64,000 nt of DNA from an uncultured Gammaproteobacteria bacterium (GCA_913064945.1 CAJYAN010000007.1:1-64000), one strand, 5' to 3'; positions 2,068 to 42,296 are shown, numbered from the stretch's first letter. The notes: generated by a model from the letters alone, not told the origin. Made by a program: numbers and translations.

Positions 2068-2160
2068 TCAAGCGTAGCCTGTGCGTCTCCTCGTTATCAT
2101 AATCACCAGTGATTACGATGACCAACCAACACGAGTGACTTTGTTATTTGCCGTCGAAGC

Positions 2161-3522
2161 CTATTCGGCGGCAATACAGAGTAATTTAAGAGGCTGATTG
2201 ACCAACAATCCAAAACGACCACGCCCTCTTTTCTCCATACTGATCAGGTCAGAGCGATCATCAAGGCGCTTGCGTAATAAAATGAGGCGTGCTTCAAGAT
2301 TATCGCCTATTTCTGGTAGATTGATATCGGAATCACGACGTAACTCCATATTGGTAAACTCACTTTTTCCGGACGCTTGCCACTGAGACAGCATCTTCCA
2401 CAAGATACAACCTGCCACACCCTTAATCAGATAGTCTGAACCAATAAACACACTGTGATCTGCCTGATAATATTTAATCAAAACCTCAACGCCTTTTGGG
2501 GGGGCTGTCTTTACCAGTTCTACAGCCGGCACTTGGTTGAGATGTTCCGATTGATAAAAGGCAAGCGCCATGGATAGATTCTGGGCGATGGAGGTGAGGG
2601 CATCCACGTCGGCATCAAAATAAGCCATGATCTGTTCGCTCTCAATGCAGAGCACTCCAAAGAGATGGCCGCGCGCCTGCAAGGGTACGGCCACCACACT
2701 TTGCACATATTCCAGACCCGGCAACGGAATATTGAGTTCGTGAAGAAGTTCATTACCCTCGGAGCTATCTACCTCTTTTTGAATCGCCTGACTCATGGTC
2801 AAGTCACGTAGCATATTGGTAAAACGAACCGGCCTATTTTTTGCGGCAGCGGTGCCAGCAACACCTTCGCCGATATTCAGTTCGGAACCGGCACCGGAAA
2901 TACCGTAACCGCGACTGGCAACGGTATAGAGTCTCGGCGTCTGATGGTCTGTAAGAAAAATAATCGTGTGCTCATAACCAAGCTGTTCTTGCATCATTTT
3001 CATGGTGTGATCAAACAGGCTTTCCATATCCTGACTTTGATTGATTATTTGTAAAACGCTCGATACCTGCTGCAGGGTTGGCATTCTTGCGGTAGGCTTT
3101 ATAATTGTCTCGGGCTTGATCGGGGTGCACGATAATACCCGATAAACGTCTGCCCCTCGTAATTTGAAAATCGCCTGCATCCCTGTTACTTCTGCGATAT
3201 TTTCCAGTTTTTCTTTCATGCGAGTGAACGTCTTGCCTTCGGTCTCGGTGTGCAAATACTCTACCTCAAGGATAAACTGTGAGACGTCCGCTGGATCCAT
3301 CACCATCACAGTGGCAAAAGGATTTTCGTGAAGGTTTTTGCTGGTTTTGTTAAAAAACTGTGCCGACAGAGCAACATGTGATGAGTCAATATAGTAAACG
3401 TGGCTCAGTGGTGTAATATTGACAATTCCATCATTGGAACAGGTAGCAATACTTGCCGGTATGGCACCTTCAAAACAGGGCCGGATGTCCTCAAGCCGTA
3501 TTTGTTGAATGACCATACTCAC
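2161..3522 (-). CDS. Split-barrel flavin domain plus GAF domain sensor-like protein
   Basis: A 453-aa protein with three parts. Residues about 10-135 resemble the pyridoxamine 5'-phosphate oxidase-like FMN split barrel (GAIPASIATCSNDGIVNITPLS, typical strand 1-2). Residues about 150-320 form a GAF domain. The C-terminal 100 residues are charged, with a possible winged-helix character, and are not identified. It overlaps its upstream neighbour, another split-barrel protein, by four bases (3519-3522), so the two are translationally coupled. The pairing of a flavin-binding fold with a GAF ligand domain suggests a redox or small-molecule sensor rather than a metabolic oxidase. That role is inference; no kinase or cyclase output domain is visible. 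Confidence 0.75.
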   Translation of the reverse strand: MSMVIQQIRLEDIRPCFEGAIPASIATCSNDGIVNITPLSHVYYIDSSHVALSAQFFNKTSKNLHENPFATVMVMDPADVSQFILEVEYLHTETEGKTFTRMKEKLENIAEVTGMQAIFKLRGADVYRVLSCTPIKPETIIKPTARMPTLQQVSSVLQIINQSQDMESLFDHTMKMMQEQLGYEHTIIFLTDHQTPRLYTVASRGYGISGAGSELNIGEGVAGTAAAKNRPVRFTNMLRDLTMSQAIQKEVDSSEGNELLHELNIPLPGLEYVQSVVAVPLQARGHLFGVLCIESEQIMAYFDADVDALTSIAQNLSMALAFYQSEHLNQVPAVELVKTAPPKGVEVLIKYYQADHSVFIGSDYLIKGVAGCILWKMLSQWQASGKSEFTNMELRRDSDINLPEIGDNLEARLILLRKRLDDRSDLISMEKRGRGRFGLLVNQPLKLLCIAAE

Positions 3523-3998
3523 AGCCGATCCCCCGCTCCTGGTCCCGGTGTTTGCTTAAAGCATTCCTCCACGGGGCAATACACAGGCACGTAATCTTCT
3601 ATAGAACTACCTGCCATTGAATTTGCGGCCGTGCGAGGCAAACCCAAATTTTCAATCATTGAATATTGTGCCTCATAAAATGCCTCCAGCACTGACCGAT
3701 AAGGTGCAAGGTCATTAAGTATCTTTGCATGTGTGCCTTTTAGCTGATACGTCTCATAAGTGAAGACATTAATAAAAAAAGCCGCATAAATGCCATTATC
3801 ACGAATATTTTTTAGAGCCTGAGGCATGTAGCTGCGATACAGGAAGAGTATTACCGATTGGCAATCATCATTCACTTTGCAGCCCCAGGAGCGGGTAAAA
3901 GCGGTTTTATTAAAAGAATCACGAGTCCCTATCTGGATGGGTATACCCGATTCAAGGAACTGAACGAGATGGTCATTCAAAATAATAGTCTCTGGCAT
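3519..3998 (-). CDS. PPOX-class FMN split-barrel protein
   Basis: A 159-aa protein whose N-terminal part (SGIPIQIGTRDSFNKTAFTR, then SWGCKV) fits the start of pyridoxamine-oxidase-like FMN barrels: a beta strand, a polar turn and an Arg for flavin phosphate. It is the first gene of a two-gene minus-strand operon and overlaps the PPOX-GAF gene in an ATGA arrangement. A role as flavin or heme binding partner of the GAF protein is plausible but not shown. The C-terminus contains a short Cys-rich stretch (PVYCPVEECF) that is unusual for the fold. Confidence 0.65.
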   Translation of the reverse strand: MPETIILNDHLVQFLESGIPIQIGTRDSFNKTAFTRSWGCKVNDDCQSVILFLYRSYMPQALKNIRDNGIYAAFFINVFTYETYQLKGTHAKILNDLAPYRSVLEAFYEAQYSMIENLGLPRTAANSMAGSSIEDYVPVYCPVEECFKQTPGPGAGDRL

Positions 3999-5149: not shown

Positions 5150-6700
5150 ATGATCACGGCAACCATCTGGCTTAGTTTTGCTTTTGGGCTGGGCCTATTA
5201 ATGCGCCTGATTGGCCTGCCGCCACTGGTGGGCTATCTCGCCGCAGGCTTTACCTTGAGCATTTTTGGCTACGGGAGCAATGAGATTCTGAGCCATGTTG
5301 CTCATGCAGGCGTGTTATTGCTGCTATTCAGTATCGGGCTTAAATTACGCCTGCGTTCCCTTATTAGTAAGGAAGTCCTGCTGGGATCCTTACTGCACAT
5401 GGCATTGATGGTCATGCTTGTCTATGTTGTTAACCTTAGTATTTTTGGCCTGAGCAAGCAAGTGGCACTGGCGATTGCCGTAGCACTGTCATTCTCGAGT
5501 ACGGTGGTTGCCGCCAAGGTGCTGGAAAGCAAAAAAGAATTACGCGCGTTTCATGGACGGATCGCGATTGGCATCCTGATTATGCAGGATCTGGTGGCGG
5601 TTGCGGTGCTGAGTGTGGGCAATGGTGTCGCACCATCACCGTTTGCCTTCCTGCTATTAGGGCTGCTATTCGTTCGACCGATAATCCATCGTTTGCTGGA
5701 TGTGAGTGGCCATGGCGAACTGGTGATCCTTTATGGTTTGTTGCTTTCGATTGTTATCGGCGGTCATGGTTTCGAATATTTTGGTTTAAGCTCTGAACTG
5801 GGGGCTTTACTGCTGGGGGTTTTAGTCTCCAATCATAAACGGGCAATGGAGCTGTCGAATTCCATCTGGGGGTTAAAGGAAATTTTACTGGTGGGCTTTT
5901 TTTTGCAAATTGGCCTGATGGGACATCCAACGCTTGAAATGCTGGAAACAGCATTGCTGATCAATCTGGTATTAATCATCAAAGCGATCTTGTTCTTTTT
6001 TATCATGATTATGTTTCGCTTACGCGCGCGTACTGCGTTTCTGACCAGTCTATCGCTGGCAACCTTTAGTGAGTTCGGGTTAATTGTCGCCAATATGGCG
6101 GTACGCAATGCCTGGTTAAGTCAGGAAACAATGGTATTATTAGCACTGACGGTCGCCATTTCTTTTGCTATTGCGGCACCATTGAACCGCTATTCCCACG
6201 CAATTTATAGCTGGCTGGAATTCTGGTTGCAAAAGTTTGAATCAAGCAAACACCACCCTGATGATGAACCGATCAATATTGGTAATTCGCATGTCCTGGT
6301 GATTGGCATGGGGCGTGTTGGTAGCGGGGCTTATGACCTGTTAATGCAGCGGCAGGAACGTGTCATTGGTCTCGATTCGGATCCGCTCAAGGTAGAGAAA
6401 CATCGCCAGGCAGGTCGACGTGTCTTATACGCCGATGCAGAAGATCCCGGCTTGTGGAGCAATATACATTTAGAGGGCGTCCATACCATTATGCTTGCGA
6501 TGCCGGAGACGGCCGCCAAATTGCTGGCAGCGAAAGAGTTACGCCGGATTGGTTTTAGCGGGATTATTTCAGCGACGGTGGTTTTTGAAGAAGAGATTGA
6601 AACACTTGAGAACGCAGGTGTTAACTATATCTATAATTACTATAATGGGATTGGAGAGAGTTTTGCGATACACTCGCTGGCAACCAAAACTGAAAAATAA
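5150..6700 (+). CDS. CPA2-family monovalent cation:proton antiporter with TrkA-N domain (Kef/YbaL type)
   Basis: Residues 1 to about 365 form the roughly twelve-helix Na+/H+ exchanger domain of the inner membrane. A linker rich in charged residues follows, then a cytosolic Rossmann RCK/TrkA-N domain starting HVLVIGMGRVGSG (GxGxxG near residue 386), which in this family binds NAD(H) or nucleotides and gates transport. It probably exports K+ or Na+ in exchange for protons. Length (516 aa) fits YbaL/RosB-like antiporters. ATG 5150 is preferred over the in-frame TTG at 5144 because the only purine-rich stretch (TGAG, 5137-5140) sits nine bases before it. The gene has no operon partner. Confidence 0.85.
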   Translation: MITATIWLSFAFGLGLLMRLIGLPPLVGYLAAGFTLSIFGYGSNEILSHVAHAGVLLLLFSIGLKLRLRSLISKEVLLGSLLHMALMVMLVYVVNLSIFGLSKQVALAIAVALSFSSTVVAAKVLESKKELRAFHGRIAIGILIMQDLVAVAVLSVGNGVAPSPFAFLLLGLLFVRPIIHRLLDVSGHGELVILYGLLLSIVIGGHGFEYFGLSSELGALLLGVLVSNHKRAMELSNSIWGLKEILLVGFFLQIGLMGHPTLEMLETALLINLVLIIKAILFFFIMIMFRLRARTAFLTSLSLATFSEFGLIVANMAVRNAWLSQETMVLLALTVAISFAIAAPLNRYSHAIYSWLEFWLQKFESSKHHPDDEPINIGNSHVLVIGMGRVGSGAYDLLMQRQERVIGLDSDPLKVEKHRQAGRRVLYADAEDPGLWSNIHLEGVHTIMLAMPETAAKLLAAKELRRIGFSGIISATVVFEEEIETLENAGVNYIYNYYNGIGESFAIHSLATKTEK

Positions 6701-6794
6701 TAAAAGGTAGCAGTGGGAGATAATCCTATCCAGATAGGTTGTTGTCCCAGTCCCAAGATTAATATGGTCAGATTCTGAGTGATCCTCTTAAAGT

Positions 6795-7015
6795 GTTAGT
6801 AACTGGTCATGGCGAGGAAACACTGAGAAATGATTATATTCCAGTGTTAACATGGCAATCTTGAGAATAAACCGTGCGTTACCAGATTGCGTCAGTTGGC
6901 GGAGGGCTTCCTTTAGGGCGTTACACTCCTTCGCAATGACAGGCTTTTTTCATTGTGTTTAAGTTGACATTTAAGTAAATCACTGTTTTTGATCGCAATG
7001 TTGTGGGGATACCTC
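6795..7015. repeat. MITE-like repeat, copy 1 (full length)
   Basis: The left part (6801-6950) is an imperfect inverted repeat: it opens with TGGTCATGGCGAGGAAACAC and closes with TTCGCAATGACAGGC, the form CATTGCGAGGA..TCGCAATGAC common to many proteobacterial miniature elements. The right part (6951-7015), containing TCACTGTTTTTGATCGCAAT, is shared with copies at 11148-11210 and, reversed, 20690-20752. It encodes no protein. Confidence 0.7.
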
Positions 7016-7048
7016 AGGGTCAGAGTCTATTATTTGAAGGTGAAACGA

Positions 7049-7375
7049 ATGCATACAAATCTCTATCTCCTCGTCACAATTAGCCTGCTTACTGGTTTTT
7101 TCATGCGCCCGTTCAATATGTTTGTCTTCGGCAAAGCGGTTTCGTTGACAAAATATACGGACAGTAAACCCCTCATTTTCCTGCTGCTGTTTGGCTCGAT
7201 GCTGACCACCATGGTCGTATCGATTACGACGATATATTTATCTCTGAAAATCACAGGCTTCATCCCCATGGGAGACCATTTGCCAGTCTTCCTGGTGTCC
7301 TTTTTTATTGGAGGTACGCTCTGGGTCCTCTATGCCAGGAAGTATAACGTTAGTTGCAATATCGATCTGGACTAG
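7049..7375 (+). CDS. Small membrane protein, unknown function
   Basis: A 108-aa protein with three likely membrane segments (about 5-25, 45-70 and 80-103), ending in a short polar tail with one Cys. The start at 7049 is chosen because AAGGTG (7037-7042) lies six bases upstream and the hydrophobic N-terminus begins there; the open frame extends 20 codons further into the MITE-like repeat. I do not recognise the family. It lies between two repeat copies and has no close neighbour in the same operon. Confidence 0.6.
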   Translation: MHTNLYLLVTISLLTGFFMRPFNMFVFGKAVSLTKYTDSKPLIFLLLFGSMLTTMVVSITTIYLSLKITGFIPMGDHLPVFLVSFFIGGTLWVLYARKYNVSCNIDLD

Positions 7376-16959: not shown

Positions 16960-17613
16960 ATGAATAATAAGCTGCCTGTTTTTTACAGCTTCCGTCGTTG
17001 TCCTTATGCGATACGCGCAAGGCTTGCAATTAAAGTGAGCCAGGTTCAGGTGGCGCTACGTGAGGTATCCCTGGCAGACAAGCCTGAGGCAATGTTGACT
17101 GCGTCACCGAAAGGGACTGTGCCGGTTCTTGTCTTGCAGGATGGGACCGTGATCGATGAAAGCATCGACATTATGGTCTGGGCCTTACAGCAGTATGACC
17201 CGGAGAGCTGGTTATGTCAGGACAATGAGCGTCTTAAAAAAATGAATAACCTTATTGCGTCGAATGACTATGAATTTAAAATTCATCTTGATCACTATAA
17301 ATATGCCAATCGATTTCCCGAGCAGTCGATAGCTCACTATCGCCAACAAGGAGAACATTTCCTACAACAACTTGAGAATTGCCTAAGTGAGCGGCGATTC
17401 CTCATCGGTGATGGCGTATCACTGGCTGATATGGCAATATTTCCATTTGTTCGACAATTTGCATTTGTCGACAGACCATGGTTTGATCAATCTCAATATC
17501 TACATGTACAACGTTGGCTGGAAGTATTTTTAAATGCAGACCTGTTTCAGAAAGTCATGAGTAAACAACTGCAATGGTTTGTGGGAAATGAGATTACAGT
17601 ATTTGGTGGTTAA
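16960..17613 (+). CDS. Glutathione S-transferase family protein
   Basis: A 217-aa GST. The N-terminal thioredoxin fold has the RRCPYAIRARLAI active-site strand-helix with Cys at the catalytic position, as in omega/beta-type or GrxB-like enzymes, and the GTVPVL cis-Pro with the DES glutathione-binding turn. The C-terminal all-helical domain includes LADMAIFPFVRQF. It probably catalyses glutathione-dependent thiol chemistry. AGGAAA lies upstream of the ATG. Convergent with the minus-strand secreted pair. Confidence 0.83.
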   Translation: MNNKLPVFYSFRRCPYAIRARLAIKVSQVQVALREVSLADKPEAMLTASPKGTVPVLVLQDGTVIDESIDIMVWALQQYDPESWLCQDNERLKKMNNLIASNDYEFKIHLDHYKYANRFPEQSIAHYRQQGEHFLQQLENCLSERRFLIGDGVSLADMAIFPFVRQFAFVDRPWFDQSQYLHVQRWLEVFLNADLFQKVMSKQLQWFVGNEITVFGG

Positions 17614-24098: not shown

Positions 24099-24855
24099 GC
24101 GCGGGAATGGCCTCGGTGCTGTTTCTGTACAGTCTTTATGCTGAATATACCAATAATAAACATAATTCGCGCCTAGTTATAGTTATATCAAAAAGTGAGG
24201 GTAAATTTTCCGGCCGTAGTAACTTAATCCATGATGCCGATGAGATCTCATAAGTAGGTTCACGGTGTTCAGCGGTCCCTTGTATAACACTGTGAAGGCG
24301 GGTAGCGGTGAAGTGATATACCAGAGATGAGTGCCATGCGGCGTACCACTGTAGCGGCGAGATGCCTTCAGCGATGCTTTATCACCGATTTGAATGACAG
24401 GTGCATCGTCGACGGACGATGTCGGGATAGCCGGATCAAACAAGATGGCTCGCTTGCCGCGTCAGTAGAGTTTCGATGATGTAGAACGGTGATAAACGAC
24501 TGTATTGAACATAAGTAGCAGCCTTGTCACGCTCGTCTGGATTGTCGGCGTAGCGGGAGTAGCGTTGTTGTTCAGTCAAATGCTAATACGATAGCAATCT
24601 GTGGTGGCGTAATGATTAATGCCAGACTGGACGGTTGTCCGTGTGAGTTTATTAACCTGCACAAAATAAATACTACCCCTCTGTAACATCAAACGTGGAT
24701 ATTCCAAAAGTTTGATGTCTGTACAACATTGAGTGTCTCCTCGGTAAAAATTTGGCATACATGTTGCTGCTCAGATGATTGTAATGAATGTCGAGAATAT
24801 AAATCTCGATCTGATGCCATGATTGAGCCAAATAACCACAGATAAGGATACACTG
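24099..24855. other. Intergenic with probable decayed gene
   Basis: On the minus strand two separate frames, about 24575-24440 (LTEQQRYSRYADNPDERDKA..) and 24380-24195 (..ISPLQWYAAWHSS..), read like protein but are separated by stops and a frame change, so an unidentified gene has probably decayed here. The last 80 bases precede the cyanate hydratase; no clear promoter is seen. Confidence 0.4.
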
Positions 24856-25299
24856 ATGACTCGCAATGAAACGACAGAACGGATTATTATCGCTAAATTA
24901 ACCAAGCAATTGTCCTGGAAACAACTGGCGGACGCGATTGGTATGAGTAAGGAGTGGACTACAGCGGCTCTGCTGGGACAGATGACATTAACTATGGAGC
25001 AGGCCGCCAAGATAGGTGCGCTGCTTGAATTACCAGAAGAGGCCGTTGCCCAGCTACAGGTCGTGCCCTATAAAGGTTCTGTAACGACGGCCATTCCAAC
25101 AGATCCGTTAATTTACCGGTTTTATGAACTCATCAATGTCTACGGTACGACCTTTAAGGCACTGATACATGAAGAGTTTGGTGATGGGATCATGAGCGCG
25201 ATTGACTTTAACATGGCGCTTGAGCGTGAGCCCGACCCCAAAGGTGACCGCGTGAAAATTGTTATGAGTGGTAAGTTTCTACCCTATAAGGCTTACTGA
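24856..25299 (+). CDS. cynS: Cyanate hydratase (cyanase)
   Basis: Converts cyanate and bicarbonate to ammonia (via carbamate) and CO2 in the cytosol, usually as a decamer. The catalytic triad is visible as Arg88, Glu91 and Ser114 (RFYELINVYG and GDGIMSAIDFN), matching the spacing of E. coli Arg96, Glu99 and Ser122. The N-terminal helical HTH-like dimerisation domain is normal. ATG 24856 is chosen for the AAGGA at 24844-24848; the frame is open eleven codons further. The following FNT channel gene suggests import of cyanate or export/import of a related anion. Length 147 aa. Confidence 0.92.
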   Translation: MTRNETTERIIIAKLTKQLSWKQLADAIGMSKEWTTAALLGQMTLTMEQAAKIGALLELPEEAVAQLQVVPYKGSVTTAIPTDPLIYRFYELINVYGTTFKALIHEEFGDGIMSAIDFNMALEREPDPKGDRVKIVMSGKFLPYKAY

Positions 25300-25573
25300 C
25301 GATGGCGCGCTGTATGACAGACGTCAATGCTCAGCAGATTGGCGCACCATAATAGATGATTGATGCACTGTGCGGGTGCAATATAAACGCCTCTACCCTG
25401 GGAACGACAGTCGTATGCAAAGAAAATACGAGTGAATACAGTTAGATAATTTCTAATTCATTATTGGGCATGGTAGTTGCAAATACCTGTATGCAACAAA
25501 CAAATAGAAGTAAAGCAACTATTGTTATTGGGCTGTAGTATTTACATTAAACAAGATTTACAGGGGACACGAT

Positions 25574-26383
25574 ATGTCTTATTTAGAGCCAACAGAGTTC
25601 GTTACAAAAATGGTGGATTCTGGAGAATCCAAGGTCTACATGTCGACAAAGGATACGTTAATTCGTGCCTTTATGGCCGGTGCCATTTTGGCCCTTGCGG
25701 CGATATTTGCGATTACCGTTGCCGTAAAAACAGGCTCGCCCTTAACGGGGGCAATCCTTTTTCCCGTTGGCTTCATTATGTTGTATTTAATGAAATTTGA
25801 CTTGCTAACAGGCGTATTTACCCTGGTGCCGCTGGCCCTTCTCGATAAAAGGCCAGGCGTAACGGTCGGCCAGGTACTGCGGAACTGGGGACTCGTGTTT
25901 CTCGGTAATTTTGCTGGGGCACTGACCGTCGCCTTCATGATGTCGTTTATTCTGACTTATGGATATAGTGTGGACGGAGGGGCGATTGCCCAGAAAGTAG
26001 GACATATTGGTGAGTCCCGAACCCTGGGTTATAAATCGCATGGTATTGATGGATGGATAACAATTTTTATCCGCGGTATGTTATGCAACTGGATGGTTTC
26101 GATGGGTGTGGTCGGCGCCATGATCTCCACCTCTGCCAGCGGCAAAATGATGGCTATGTGGATGCCGGTGATGCTGTTCTTCTTTATGGGTTTTGAGCAC
26201 TCCATCGTAAATATGTTTTTATTTCCTTTTTCCATGATTATGGGTGGCGGTTTTACTATCATGGATTATTTTATCTGGAATGAAATTCCGACGGTGTTAG
26301 GGAACCTGATTGGTGGATTTGTCCTGGTGGGACTTCCACTGTATTTTACCCATGTACGGACAAGCCCGAACCGTGCGCTATAA
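25574..26383 (+). CDS. Formate/nitrite transporter (FNT) family channel
   Basis: A 269-aa pentameric anion channel with six helices. The central gating His209 lies in FEHSIVNMF, the same position as in FocA, and the LCNWMVSMG broken-helix motif is present. The family carries formate, nitrite, hydrosulfide or other small monovalent anions. Next to cynS the substrate may be cyanate or nitrite; that is inference from context. A GGGGAC ribosome site lies just ahead. A strong terminator follows 30 bases after its stop. Confidence 0.87.
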   Translation: MSYLEPTEFVTKMVDSGESKVYMSTKDTLIRAFMAGAILALAAIFAITVAVKTGSPLTGAILFPVGFIMLYLMKFDLLTGVFTLVPLALLDKRPGVTVGQVLRNWGLVFLGNFAGALTVAFMMSFILTYGYSVDGGAIAQKVGHIGESRTLGYKSHGIDGWITIFIRGMLCNWMVSMGVVGAMISTSASGKMMAMWMPVMLFFFMGFEHSIVNMFLFPFSMIMGGGFTIMDYFIWNEIPTVLGNLIGGFVLVGLPLYFTHVRTSPNRAL

Positions 26384-38065: not shown

Positions 38066-38398
38066 ATGCAGGACCTCACAGAATATAACCGCGACGTGGA
38101 AGGGTACCTGGTTGATCCAGAAGACTGGAACGAGCCGTTGGCACAGGAACTGGCGACCGAAGAAGGCCTTGAACTCGGTGACGAGTACTGGCCGATTCTG
38201 GGCTTTATGCGCGATTACTGGCAGGAACACAAAACGGCACCGGATGTGCGCCACGTCATGAAGTTTATGGCCGAAAAAGTCGGTGTTGATAAAAAACAGG
38301 CCAAACAGCACCTGTTCAAACTGTTCCCGTATGGTTATGTGAAACAGGCCTGTAAGATTGCCGGCATGCAGCGCCCGCGTGGCTGGAGTACAGGCTAA
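38066..38398 (+). CDS. DsrC/TusE-family sulfur-relay protein with one C-terminal cysteine
   Basis: A 110-aa protein of the DsrC/TusE/RspA family (EDWNEPLAQELATEEGLELG, PDVRHVMKFMAEKVG, LFPYGYVKQACKIAGM). The family carries sulfur on one or two Cys of a flexible C-terminal arm. Here the inner Cys (Cys96, equivalent to CysB of DsrC) is kept, while the position of the outer, near-terminal Cys is Trp107, the tail being RGWSTG. It is therefore neither TusE (outer Cys only) nor canonical DsrC (both). An AGGAGA ribosome site is present. Divergent from a LysR gene, it may be a sulfur-dependent signalling or carrier variant. Confidence 0.85.
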   Translation: MQDLTEYNRDVEGYLVDPEDWNEPLAQELATEEGLELGDEYWPILGFMRDYWQEHKTAPDVRHVMKFMAEKVGVDKKQAKQHLFKLFPYGYVKQACKIAGMQRPRGWSTG

Positions 38399-38430: not shown

Positions 38431-38988
38431 TTAATTTGCCCTTCTTCCGCCCAGCAGAACGCTGCTGGCGAGGAAGAGGCCATAGACGGCGGCATAGCCG
38501 AGTAAGACATGTCCCAGTTGTTGCTGGTCATTGATACCATAGCTGACGCAGTAGCGTTGTGGCGCAATAAGATACAACCATCCGAGGCGTAACAACGTCG
38601 CCAGTAGTTCAAGGTGCAGAATACCACGTAATACAAAGGGCAGATGTCGCCAGCACAATACCAGTGATATCCCCGCCAGTGGCAACGATAGCCATTTTAG
38701 GAAGGCAATGCTGGACTGATACAGTGCAGCATCCAGTAGGCGCGGCAACATCCACAAACTAATCGTAAAGAGAGAGTACAGTAGCAGACTGATGCGATAC
38801 CGCTGACCAAACACTACCAGGCGAGGAGAGTACGTCTGTAGCAGGCCGGCAAACAGGGCACCGACAAACACGAGCAGGGGAAGTTGAACCGCCATGTGTG
38901 ACGTCATACTGGTTTCAAGCCAATGGTGGCTAATGATTATCACCGGGACTAGCATGACGAACATCGCTTGCCGAAAGTTATCCGTCAT
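38431..38988 (-). CDS. Multi-pass membrane protein of the reductase operon (orf1-like)
   Basis: A 185-aa protein with five or six helices. The first part has conserved-looking His residues (ISHHWLETSMTSHMAVQLPLL), reminiscent of CtaG/DUF1404-type assembly factors. It is the last gene of the operon and its start overlaps the SCO gene by 11 bases. In the norSY-senC-orf1 clusters described in ammonia-oxidising bacteria the fourth gene is likewise a membrane protein of unknown role. Probably needed for cofactor insertion. Confidence 0.65.
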   Translation of the reverse strand: MTDNFRQAMFVMLVPVIIISHHWLETSMTSHMAVQLPLLVFVGALFAGLLQTYSPRLVVFGQRYRISLLLYSLFTISLWMLPRLLDAALYQSSIAFLKWLSLPLAGISLVLCWRHLPFVLRGILHLELLATLLRLGWLYLIAPQRYCVSYGINDQQQLGHVLLGYAAVYGLFLASSVLLGGRRAN

Positions 38989-39625
38989 GATTGATACCAG
39001 TCTTGGCGGCTAACAACATACGCGCAATGATATCGATTGTCAGCTTGAGATTGTCTTCATCAATTATTCGTACCAGATATCCCTTTTGATCGACGAGATG
39101 GGTGGCCGCGTTGTGGGTGAAGCCTCCGATGCCGTCCGGGATACTCACGACGCCGAGTTGATGTTGCATTTCCTGTCCCTGCAGCGGTTTGACCGGGCGG
39201 ACAGCCTGCCAGGAAGTCTTCAGTTGATTGCTGAAGCGTAGCATATAGGCCTTCAACTTTTGTGGCGTATCGAAGTGCGGATCCAGTGAGATACTTAACA
39301 GACGTACGCGATCCTGAAAGCTGCGCTGTAACAGCATACGTTGCAGGCGCGAAAGGTTCAGACCGGTATAGCCACATATTGTCGGACAACGTGTGTAAAT
39401 AAAATTAATAACCAGCACCTTGCCACGCAAGGAATTAAGGTCAAGTAAATGACCAAACTGATCCTGCAAAAGTACATTTGGGACTGCTAACGGGTGTGAG
39501 GCTATTTTTAACCGGCGATAACTTTCCCAGGTAAACGCCCTGAAGCCCTGTGTTGTTTGCCACCAGGCCAGAAGACCCAGGCTGACAGCCACCACAGTCA
39601 TCAGGTGCGGCAGGCGTTGCGTCAC
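38978..39625 (-). CDS. senC: SCO1/SenC-family copper chaperone
   Basis: A 215-aa protein with an N-terminal signal anchor (about 8-25) and a thioredoxin-fold domain. Copper ligands: Cys80 and Cys84 in RCPTICGYTG and His171 in FTHNAATHLVD. It delivers copper to, or reduces, the CuA site of subunit II. It starts 6 bases after the subunit I stop and overlaps the next gene, so it is clearly in the operon. Confidence 0.88.
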   Translation of the reverse strand: MTQRLPHLMTVVAVSLGLLAWWQTTQGFRAFTWESYRRLKIASHPLAVPNVLLQDQFGHLLDLNSLRGKVLVINFIYTRCPTICGYTGLNLSRLQRMLLQRSFQDRVRLLSISLDPHFDTPQKLKAYMLRFSNQLKTSWQAVRPVKPLQGQEMQHQLGVVSIPDGIGGFTHNAATHLVDQKGYLVRIIDEDNLKLTIDIIARMLLAAKTGINHDG

Positions 39626-39631
39626 GATTTG

Positions 39632-41086
39632 TTATGCTTCCAGCCGGATGTGTGTAAGTCGAGCCAGCAGTTTTACTGTAAAAAATAGCATACTCAGCAG
39701 AACTACCAGGCCAAACAAGGCTGCCCACTGGTCATAGGGAATCCAGGCTGCAAGATGCTCTGCCCAACGACGCGGGACGCTCATCACGCCACTGTATAAA
39801 AACATAAAAATAAAAAGCAGGGCGCTGACCATAAAAATCCAGAAACCCATACCGACGCTTCTATCTTTTGTGGTTTCATTTTCATGGCGGCTGATATGGA
39901 AGAGGAAGCCAAGCACCATCGGTAACATCCCGAGTAGCAGGTAGAAGTGAAAATGACCTGGCACCCATAAAGTATTATGCATAACCTGATTGACAACAAT
40001 GGTGCCGTCTATAATCGCTGGCACAACACCTGCTGCCCAGCCAAAGACGGCCAGAATCAGGAACTTTGCCGGTGTGTCCCACCTTACTTTGGCATGGTGG
40101 ATCTGTACCAGGGCACCATAAGTTGTCACGAGAAGTACCGGTATCCCGCTAAGATAGGAGATGACCTGGCCAAGCACGAGCATCCAGTCTGGCATGACCA
40201 TGTCCATCAACAGGTGATGCGGATAGACGATAATGACCATTAATGTACTCGCTGACCAGGCAGCAAGAAAAGGTCGCGTTACCTTCCAGGGCCGACCGGT
40301 ATACTTGGGTAATAATTCATAGACAGCAATGACGGCCATGTAAATCGTGGCATTGATGAAGACATGTCCAAAAAAATAAATCAGGTTTTTGGCCCATAGG
40401 GCATCAATTTGCATTGTCGGGTAATACAGATTGACCAGCGTCAACACCAGAATAACAGCACCGGCAAGCGTTCCGATGGTGTTCACAATCAATACCATGG
40501 TACTGGCAACGACGGTAGGAGGATGGTCTGTATCTATCCTGCCAGAGATAAGTTGATTCACGCCGAGTGCTCTACCAAGACTGCCGTATTTTGCCAACAG
40601 GGCACGAGCCACATCGAGATAAAACAGTAAAAAGCCAATACCAATAACTAACAGTCCACCAACATAAGCGGCTGCCGCATTATGACTCCAGAGCCCCATT
40701 GATTTTGCGGGCAGGGGGTAAAGGAAAGTCCAGCCACCGCCAAATTTTCCCAGTAAGATGGCACCCAGGATCATGACGACGCCAATAATAAATAGAATCA
40801 GGTTAGCTAGAAATAATCCGGGTGTCAGTGAGACATAACGACGCAGGAAATACCACATGATGGATACTCCTGCGAGGCCGGCGATGCCCACCATACCAGC
40901 ACCGTGTAGCGTCATGATTTGATAAAACCAGTCTGGTGACATATGAATATACGTGCCCTGAACAGCACGCATTACGACACCGGCAAGCATCATGAGTACA
41001 AAGATGGCAAGTGTAGTAGCAATATATAATTGTAAATACAGCCTTTCACGTGGTTGCGCTGTAACCGATTGTGTACGAGTAGTCAT
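39632..41086 (-). CDS. norS: Heme-copper oxidoreductase subunit I, probable nitric oxide reductase (NorS/sNOR type)
   Basis: A 484-aa membrane protein with 12 or more helices. Heme and metal ligands are present: His61 and His380 for the low-spin heme, His378 for the high-spin heme, His241 with His290-His291 for the active-site metal. The usual cross-linked Tyr four residues after the first metal His is replaced by Asn245 (GHVFINATIY), so it is not an ordinary A- or B-type oxygen reductase. Gene order and NsrR linkage match norSY-senC-orf1. Predicted reaction: 2 NO to N2O with electrons from cytochrome c through CuA. Oxygen reduction cannot be excluded from sequence alone. Confidence 0.75.
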   Translation of the reverse strand: MTTRTQSVTAQPRERLYLQLYIATTLAIFVLMMLAGVVMRAVQGTYIHMSPDWFYQIMTLHGAGMVGIAGLAGVSIMWYFLRRYVSLTPGLFLANLILFIIGVVMILGAILLGKFGGGWTFLYPLPAKSMGLWSHNAAAAYVGGLLVIGIGFLLFYLDVARALLAKYGSLGRALGVNQLISGRIDTDHPPTVVASTMVLIVNTIGTLAGAVILVLTLVNLYYPTMQIDALWAKNLIYFFGHVFINATIYMAVIAVYELLPKYTGRPWKVTRPFLAAWSASTLMVIIVYPHHLLMDMVMPDWMLVLGQVISYLSGIPVLLVTTYGALVQIHHAKVRWDTPAKFLILAVFGWAAGVVPAIIDGTIVVNQVMHNTLWVPGHFHFYLLLGMLPMVLGFLFHISRHENETTKDRSVGMGFWIFMVSALLFIFMFLYSGVMSVPRRWAEHLAAWIPYDQWAALFGLVVLLSMLFFTVKLLARLTHIRLEA

Positions 41087-41099
41087 TATGATCCCCTTG

Positions 41100-41621
41100 T
41101 TATCTGGCAGACAAAACGGTAAGTGTGGTCGTCATGTTGTGGTGCGCGAGGCCGCAGTATTCCAGGCAGAGTACTTTGTACTCACCTGGTTTGGTAAATG
41201 TGTAATGTAGCGTATTGGTATATCCCGGCATGGCCTGGACCTGAGCCTGCATCTTCATGTTTGCATCATAAATTCCAAAGCCATGATTCACATCTTTACT
41301 AGTGACCTCAAATTTAACGGCATCGCCGCTATGAAATTGCTGTTGGCTTAATTCCCAGTGCCACTGCGATGCGACGACCTGTACAACCTTTTCATTGGCA
41401 GGGTTAGTGGTGGCAGAATGAGGCCAGGGAAGTAATGTGGTGACACTGATTATGACTCCAGCAACAATAACCAGCCAGAATAGTTTTTGACGATGGCGGT
41501 AATCTCGCCGGGCAACCTCCTCATAAGATTCACCGCTTTTGGAACTAAATATAAAGCTAACAAAGATAACGATTAACAAACCGATAAATATCAGCGTTAG
41601 ATACCAGGCAAGATGCTGCAT
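41100..41621 (-). CDS. norY: CuA-containing subunit II of the heme-copper reductase (NorY type)
   Basis: A 173-aa protein with two membrane helices (about 7-26 and 47-65) and a periplasmic cupredoxin domain. The dinuclear CuA ligands are complete: His113, Cys152, Glu154 (carbonyl), Cys156, His160 and Met163 (CLEYCGLAHHNM). It accepts electrons from a c-type cytochrome and hands them to subunit I. It is the first gene of the operon. A sigma70-like promoter (TTGACA 41721-41716, TATATT 41697-41692, 18-base spacer) precedes it, and an NsrR-type palindrome lies at the predicted transcription start. Confidence 0.85.
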   Translation of the reverse strand: MQHLAWYLTLIFIGLLIVIFVSFIFSSKSGESYEEVARRDYRHRQKLFWLVIVAGVIISVTTLLPWPHSATTNPANEKVVQVVASQWHWELSQQQFHSGDAVKFEVTSKDVNHGFGIYDANMKMQAQVQAMPGYTNTLHYTFTKPGEYKVLCLEYCGLAHHNMTTTLTVLSAR

Positions 41622-41663
41622 AGTTATTACCCCATTATAGGAAATTGAATTCGACCGGATTTA

Positions 41664-41683
41664 AAGTAGTATTTTATATACTT
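41664..41683. promoter_or_regulatory. NsrR-type operator in front of the reductase operon
   Basis: AAGTAGTATTTTATATACTT is an inverted repeat with AAGTA/TACTT ends and an AAG..GTATTT half close to the gammaproteobacterial NsrR consensus. It lies immediately downstream of the -10 box TATATT (41692-41697), covering about +1 to +20, where a repressor would block transcription. It resembles the site at 41826-41845. Confidence 0.65.
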
Positions 41684-41825
41684 GTTTTGAGAATATATAG
41701 AAAAATTGCCAGGGCTGTCAAGAAAAGTGTTTGGCAAAGTTCAGGAGGGTGAGGCTGGGGGCAAGTCTGAACCTGTGGTGTGGGCAAACTTATCCCTTAT
41801 TGGGTATTCATTTATGTCAACATAG

Positions 41826-41845
41826 ACGTATTGTAGATACTACAT
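41826..41845. promoter_or_regulatory. Second NsrR-type palindrome, in front of nsrR
   Basis: Read on the minus strand (ATGTAGTATCTACAATACGT), 14 of 20 positions match the site at 41664-41683, including the GTAGTAT core. It contains the perfect GTAG-ATA-CTAC dyad and lies 25 bases before the nsrR start codon, suggesting autoregulation. Confidence 0.55.
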
Positions 41846-41870
41846 TGACAGGTAAGTGGAATAATTAAGC

Positions 41871-42296
41871 ATGCAATTAAAACGTTATACGGATTATTCA
41901 CTACGGCTGCTGATATATCTGGGGATCAACCCGGAACGGGTCGTCAGTATTAGTGAAATTGCAGAGGCCTATGATATTTCACGTAATCATTTGCTCAAGG
42001 TGGTGAACGGATTAATGGAACAAGGTCTGATTCAAACCTTTCGCGGTAAAAGTGGCGGTCTACAATTAGCCAAACAGCCGCAGAAAATTAATGTCGGTGA
42101 AGTGATAAAGTATATGGAAGGTAATGTAGCTTTGATTGATTGTCAGGAGCCCTATTGTTCGATATTACCGGCCTGTACACTGAACCGTGTCCTGCACGAA
42201 GCTCACCTGGCATTTTTTAAAACGTTACAGGCTTATACCCTGGCAGACCTGATCAAAGCTAAAGAGAATAAACTTTTGCAATTACTGACGGGCTGA
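41871..42296 (+). CDS. nsrR: Nitric oxide-sensing repressor NsrR
   Basis: An Rrf2-family [Fe-S] regulator of 141 aa. The N-terminal winged HTH includes ISEIAEAYDISRNHLLKVVN and the RGKSGGLQLAK wing. Three Cys, at 91, 96 and 102 (CQEPYCSILPAC), occupy the same positions as in E. coli NsrR and ligate the cluster destroyed by NO. That, with the divergent reductase operon and the two palindromes, makes NsrR the best call over IscR or RirA. It should repress the operon until NO accumulates. Confidence 0.9.
   Translation: MQLKRYTDYSLRLLIYLGINPERVVSISEIAEAYDISRNHLLKVVNGLMEQGLIQTFRGKSGGLQLAKQPQKINVGEVIKYMEGNVALIDCQEPYCSILPACTLNRVLHEAHLAFFKTLQAYTLADLIKAKENKLLQLLTG

Follow-up and report, generated by a model that had tools for sequence, protein, structure and literature searches.

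A gene cluster from an uncultured Gammaproteobacteria bacterium (GCA_913064945.1, CAJYAN010000007.1:1-64000) raises the question of whether its two-subunit heme-copper enzyme reduces oxygen or nitric oxide (NO), and whether NO controls its expression. The whole stretch of 64,000 nucleotides that was analyzed is called the window. The function of the enzyme branch concerned, sNOR, is disputed in print: it is regarded either as an NO reductase or as a high-affinity oxidase.

Gene content and order of the locus

An earlier note, made from the DNA sequence, had described a minus-strand order of CuA subunit II, heme-copper subunit I, SCO/SenC and a membrane protein, divergent from an Rrf2 regulator. 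Five open reading frames were recovered at this place and on these strands (Table 1). The norS, norY, SCO and orf1 genes run on the minus strand from 41621 to 38431, with an overlap of 11 nt between the orf1 and SCO frames, and the Rrf2 gene is divergent. The COX2, COX1, SCO1-SenC and Rrf2 matches are all above the curated cut-offs of Pfam; orf1 has no Pfam match. Among NCBIfam families the enzyme matched only CoxB and CtaD, far under cut-off, so that automatic annotation can only call it a generic oxidase. The note had expected the label cytochrome c oxidase, and the relative from Ruegeria pomeroyi is indeed labelled 'cbb3-type cytochrome c oxidase subunit I'.

Table 1. Genes and candidate control sites of the locus, in window positions
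Feature	Position	Strand	Remark
norS-like CuA subunit II	41100-41621	-	COX2 Pfam
norY-like heme-copper subunit I, 484 aa	39632-41086	-	COX1 Pfam
SCO/SenC copper chaperone, GTG start	38978-39625	-	SCO1-SenC Pfam
orf1, helical membrane protein	38431-38988	-	kept in all near sNOR operons
NsrR-like Rrf2 repressor gene	41871-42296	+	Rrf2 Pfam; best NCBIfam and PDB match NsrR
Candidate NsrR box before norS, AAGTAGTATTTTATATACTTGTT	41664-41686		17/22 to consensus
Second candidate NsrR box, before the Rrf2 gene, TAGACGTATTGTAGATACTACAT	41823-41845		15/22 to consensus
norS sigma-70-type promoter, TTGACA-18-TATATT	41692-41721	-	11/12

The order norS-norY-SCO-orf1 is the same in 16 of 16 loci (the window and 15 close relatives from alpha-, beta- and gammaproteobacteria) and in all eight loci of ammonia oxidizers, far more often than chance would give. 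Of the 16 close loci, ten have a divergent Rrf2 gene and one more has it nearby. The ammonia-oxidizer set was obtained by finding an amo-positive family first and then searching it with NorY, which occurs in 19 of its 81 genomes. Eight carriers were checked to be amo-positive; all of them have the four genes in order and the same active-site Asn, and their subunit I is 53-57% identical to that of the window. The four genes also have the same order as norSY-senC-orf1 described from N. europaea (NE0683-86), N. multiformis and N. communis. The megaplasmid of R. pomeroyi DSS-3 (SPO_RS20745-20765) resembles the window further in that an Rrf2 gene is divergent from norS-norY-SCO-orf1, with a perfect palindrome upstream; its subunit I is 50% identical. 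Unlike the window, it has a formate/nitrite transporter (FNT) gene directly after orf1 and cbb3 genes adjacent.

The CuA site of NorS is intact (H113, C152, E154, C156, H160, M163) and identical in 33 of 33 aligned NorS rows. The SCO protein keeps its CxxxC motif (C80, C84) and H171, which are identical in 24 of 24 SCO rows. The orf1 product, found in each of the near sNOR operons read but unstudied so far, has 21 invariant columns among eight relatives. Its predicted structure is a confident helical model (pLDDT 85) for which no fold match was found in the PDB, and four of eight members show weak similarity to DUF1404 (best 4.4e-6).

A cyanase gene followed by an FNT gene lies at 24823-26383 (+) of the window, about 12 kb from the sNOR operon; FNT genes are located in or beside the operon in Ruegeria, Parasedimentitalea, Thermomicrobium and seven of the eight ammonia oxidizers read. 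A DsrC-like gene (PF04358) occupies 38066-38398 (+), 3' of the operon. DsrC-like proteins are also encoded on L008 (9139-9456), L009 (9147-9419) and L044 (6156-6545); a copy on a Gallionellales contig, about 0.5 kb downstream of orf1, is 57% identical, and G124 has a weaker one near the operon. The copies in the window and L008 end with ACKIAGM..PR.WSTG; the second Cys that is usual at the C-terminus is missing from both.

Residues and phylogeny of subunit I

The heme and CuB ligands of subunit I (H61, H241, H290, H291, H378 and H380) are invariant in an alignment with A-, B- and C-type enzymes, cNOR and relatives. Helix VI reads GHVFIN, compared with HPEVY in the A/B oxygen reductases, and the cross-linked Tyr is replaced by Asn245. 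This Asn is present in 23 of 23 aligned sNOR rows; at this position the organism's own aa3 oxidase and the B-type row have Tyr, cNOR has Glu and the eNOR-like row has Gln. Helix VIII carries Asp360, which all 23 sNOR rows share and no other aligned row has. Proton channels should be lacking in sNOR; the comparison covered the D- and K-channels of A-type enzymes, whose motifs subunit I does not have. The score against TIGR02891 is 52.7 bits, with a cut-off of 670.75. An A-type cytochrome c oxidase was ruled out by helix VI, the missing channels, the separate clade (see below) and this low score. The predicted enzyme shares with cNOR (NorCB) the heme-copper superfamily, six conserved His and, presumably, NO as substrate, but a cNOR or qNOR was rejected because of Asn245 in place of Glu and because the partner is a CuA subunit rather than the heme-c subunit NorC or a fused domain; cNOR also forms a separate branch.

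Published active-site letters are Y for oxygen reductases, E for cNOR/qNOR, Q for eNOR, D for gNOR and N for sNOR (PMC8756737 Table A4). CuANOR/bNOR is given N as well (same table), so the family cannot be told from the active-site letter alone. Maximum-likelihood analysis placed subunit I in a clade of 31 rows with 100/100 support, which includes NorY of ammonia oxidizers and the protein from R. pomeroyi, formerly Silicibacter, the genus that this table names as a carrier of sNOR. Two maximum-likelihood trees separate the sNOR clade from the A, C and cNOR rows as well as from the B-type and the eNOR-like enzymes, which are represented by one row each; bNOR, gNOR, nNOR and qNOR are not included, and L031 (wrong subunit) and L029 (subunit I frame broken) were left out. 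The earlier note had suggested testing subunit I against the A/B oxygen reductases, and no nesting inside the A- or B-type rows tested was seen. Its assignment to sNOR is upheld by the clade with the norSY-senC-orf1 enzymes of ammonia oxidizers, by Asn245 and by the shared gene set.

The enzyme might instead belong to another CuA-bearing NOR family (CuANOR/bNOR, gNOR, eNOR or nNOR), given that CuANOR is also listed with Asn and that the tree is without bNOR, gNOR and nNOR sequences. This is very improbable: subunit I forms a clade directly with the Ruegeria/Silicibacter protein and the norSY-senC-orf1 proteins of amo-positive genomes, its active-site residue differs from the Gln of eNOR and the Asp of gNOR, and the SCO and orf1 match the norSY-senC-orf1 set. 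Judged from sequence, the four genes are a well-supported new example of the sNOR branch already described.

Membership in this branch leads to the disputed function. The enzyme could be a high-affinity, NO-tolerant oxygen reductase, induced by NO, that keeps respiration going while other oxidases are poisoned. A main role as high-affinity oxidase was proposed from transcriptomics of N. europaea, in which sNOR is up 2.7- to 10.8-fold under O2 limitation (PMC6967387), and the CuA site, the SCO protein and the heme/CuB center are all oxidase-like. In a PDB fold search the predicted NorY model returned the heme-copper oxidase fold only, and its best matches were aa3-type oxidases; however, a sequence search found no sNOR entry in the PDB, so this ranking does not decide. 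Against an oxidase speak the Tyr that is essential to the O2-reducing A/B enzymes, which is Asn in every member of the sNOR clade, and the missing A-type D- and K-channel residues. We consider the oxidase explanation unlikely, and favor NO reduction.

The Rrf2 regulator and candidate operators

The best NCBIfam family of the Rrf2 protein is NsrR (NF008240) with 141.4 bits; because this is under the curated cut-off of 182, we call the protein NsrR-like. Its best PDB match is also NsrR, and it is 42% identical to NsrR from E. coli. Cysteines at positions 91, 96 and 102, as the earlier note had given them, were confirmed and align with those of NsrR from E. coli and S. coelicolor; D8 is also present. 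These similarities, the conserved cysteines and an NsrR-type candidate operator at the norS promoter agree with the note's call of an NsrR-type regulator.

We scanned the loci with the published NsrR consensus gATGyAT-N5-ATrCATc (PMC1274295), scoring out of 22. Of 16 loci from non-nitrifiers, the window included, 11 have an NsrR-type palindrome upstream of norS. In ten of them it is the top-ranked site of the locus, and no background window has its score; the palindrome of the window ranks second, and 1 of 394 background windows reaches its score. A palindrome with a score of 18 at 17267 is inside coding sequence and was taken as chance. In the other five close loci the scan revealed no operator beyond chance, and in seven far relatives no NsrR-type box.

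The norS box of the window is a variant, GTAGTAT-N5-ATACTTG. The norS promoter is the best of eight sigma-70-type sites in 4.4 kb. Its -10 element ends 5 nt before the box, which overlaps the predicted start; a bound repressor would therefore cover the predicted start of norS. The distance from the end of the -10 element to the box is at most 5 nt in five loci, i.e. the window and four others. The second box, before the Rrf2 gene, points to possible autoregulation. With up to one mismatch, the form GTAGTAT-N5-ATACTNC occurs at only three places in the 3.2-Mb genome, two of them at the sNOR locus; since the form was drawn from the window locus and its nearest relative, this count shows rarity and is not an independent test. 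The third place (C1:6016) is by an EF-P-like gene and was taken as chance.

A different cluster sensor of the RirA or IscR type, responding to iron or oxidative stress, would leave the operon without NO regulation. The NsrR score below cut-off leaves room for this, and RirA comes second among the specific NCBIfam families (119 bits vs 141 for NsrR). We find it rather improbable nonetheless: NsrR is best in both NCBIfam and PDB, the three cysteines align and D8 is present, the candidate operators fit the published NsrR consensus in the 11 loci, and in Nitrosococcus oceani an annotated NsrR gene (Noc2967) adjoins senC-norY-norS (Noc2969-2971). Hence the operon is probably under NsrR control, as far as similarity and operator pattern indicate. 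Such control of norS is also an argument, if not a decisive one, against the oxidase function discussed above.

The linkage of NsrR and sNOR is not new, because it has been published for N. oceani (PMC3772326), a gammaproteobacterium that, unlike the organism of the window, is a nitrifier; we compared it from the published table. No description of an operator upstream of norS was found in the literature searched, and the NsrR-type operator pattern in non-nitrifiers is a new and useful addition. Neither a box of this type nor an Rrf2 gene was found in the eight ammonia-oxidizer loci read, in contrast to the window. The nsrR gene of N. europaea is located at nirK, whereas the Rrf2 gene of the window is divergent from norS.

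Distribution and proposed role

The norY gene is patchy, with 8 carriers among 274 genomes across the class and 2 among 37 in the family. Horizontal transfer is suggested by this scattered occurrence and by the mixed tree. A far sNOR group (L012, L014-L017, L030) has a CtaG-like assembly gene, similar to a cytochrome c oxidase assembly protein of Thermomicrobium, and no SCO or orf1 was detected after norY; copper delivery may thus differ between the two sNOR groups. In L016, L017 and L018, sNOR-like operons lie on contigs that binning assigned to methanogens (Methanoculleus, Methanomicrobiales); either the binning is wrong or the host is a surprising one. On the Chloroflexi MAG contig L012, an eNOR-like subunit I with Gln and an sNOR-like operon are arranged back to back (2123-3820, -, and 5471-7063, +). 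On a plasmid of Parasedimentitalea marina (L029, 6995-8448), subunit I is broken into two overlapping frames with no annotated gene, possibly a pseudogene or a sequencing error.

The genome of the window organism is rated 100% complete and encodes four COX1 proteins: NorY, one aa3 and two cbb3 oxidases. An organism already equipped with these three oxidases is a further argument against an oxidase function of sNOR. No cNOR or qNOR is among the four COX1 proteins. No NirK scored over cut-off in the genome, and no NirS or NosZ was recognized. An NnrS gene is present on the same contig as the sNOR operon; a scan for an NsrR box before it gave nothing above background (14/22). The presence of NnrS without recognizable NirK, NirS or NosZ fits, by inference, a role in detoxifying NO that comes from outside or arises in side reactions, and not denitrification.

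We propose, with a probability of about 0.83, that the operon encodes an NO-inducible, cytochrome-c-fed two-subunit sNOR for detoxification that is repressed by NsrR. Electrons from cytochrome c or another periplasmic donor would enter at the CuA site of NorS and pass via the low-spin heme to the heme/CuB center of NorY, where two NO would be reduced to N2O. The SCO protein would load copper, and orf1 would probably help in assembly. When NO is absent, NsrR with its [Fe-S] cluster would be bound at the palindrome on the norS promoter start and at the palindrome before its own gene; NO would destroy the cluster and release repression.

We see about an even chance that sNOR serves organisms other than nitrifiers as a dedicated NO reductase for detoxification, inducible by NO as a member of the NsrR regulon, and that the disputed versions of the nitrifiers are derived copies that have lost this control. 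In the trees, NorY of ammonia oxidizers falls inside the sNOR clade at two places. The sNOR set would add a step that produces N2O and that annotation takes for a cytochrome oxidase. If sNOR does belong to the NsrR regulon of non-nitrifiers, the question of oxidase or reductase would become testable in them; a non-nitrifier that is without cNOR or qNOR and has a divergent NsrR-like gene and operator-like palindromes is a cleaner test case than the nitrifiers, which carry other NO-handling enzymes.
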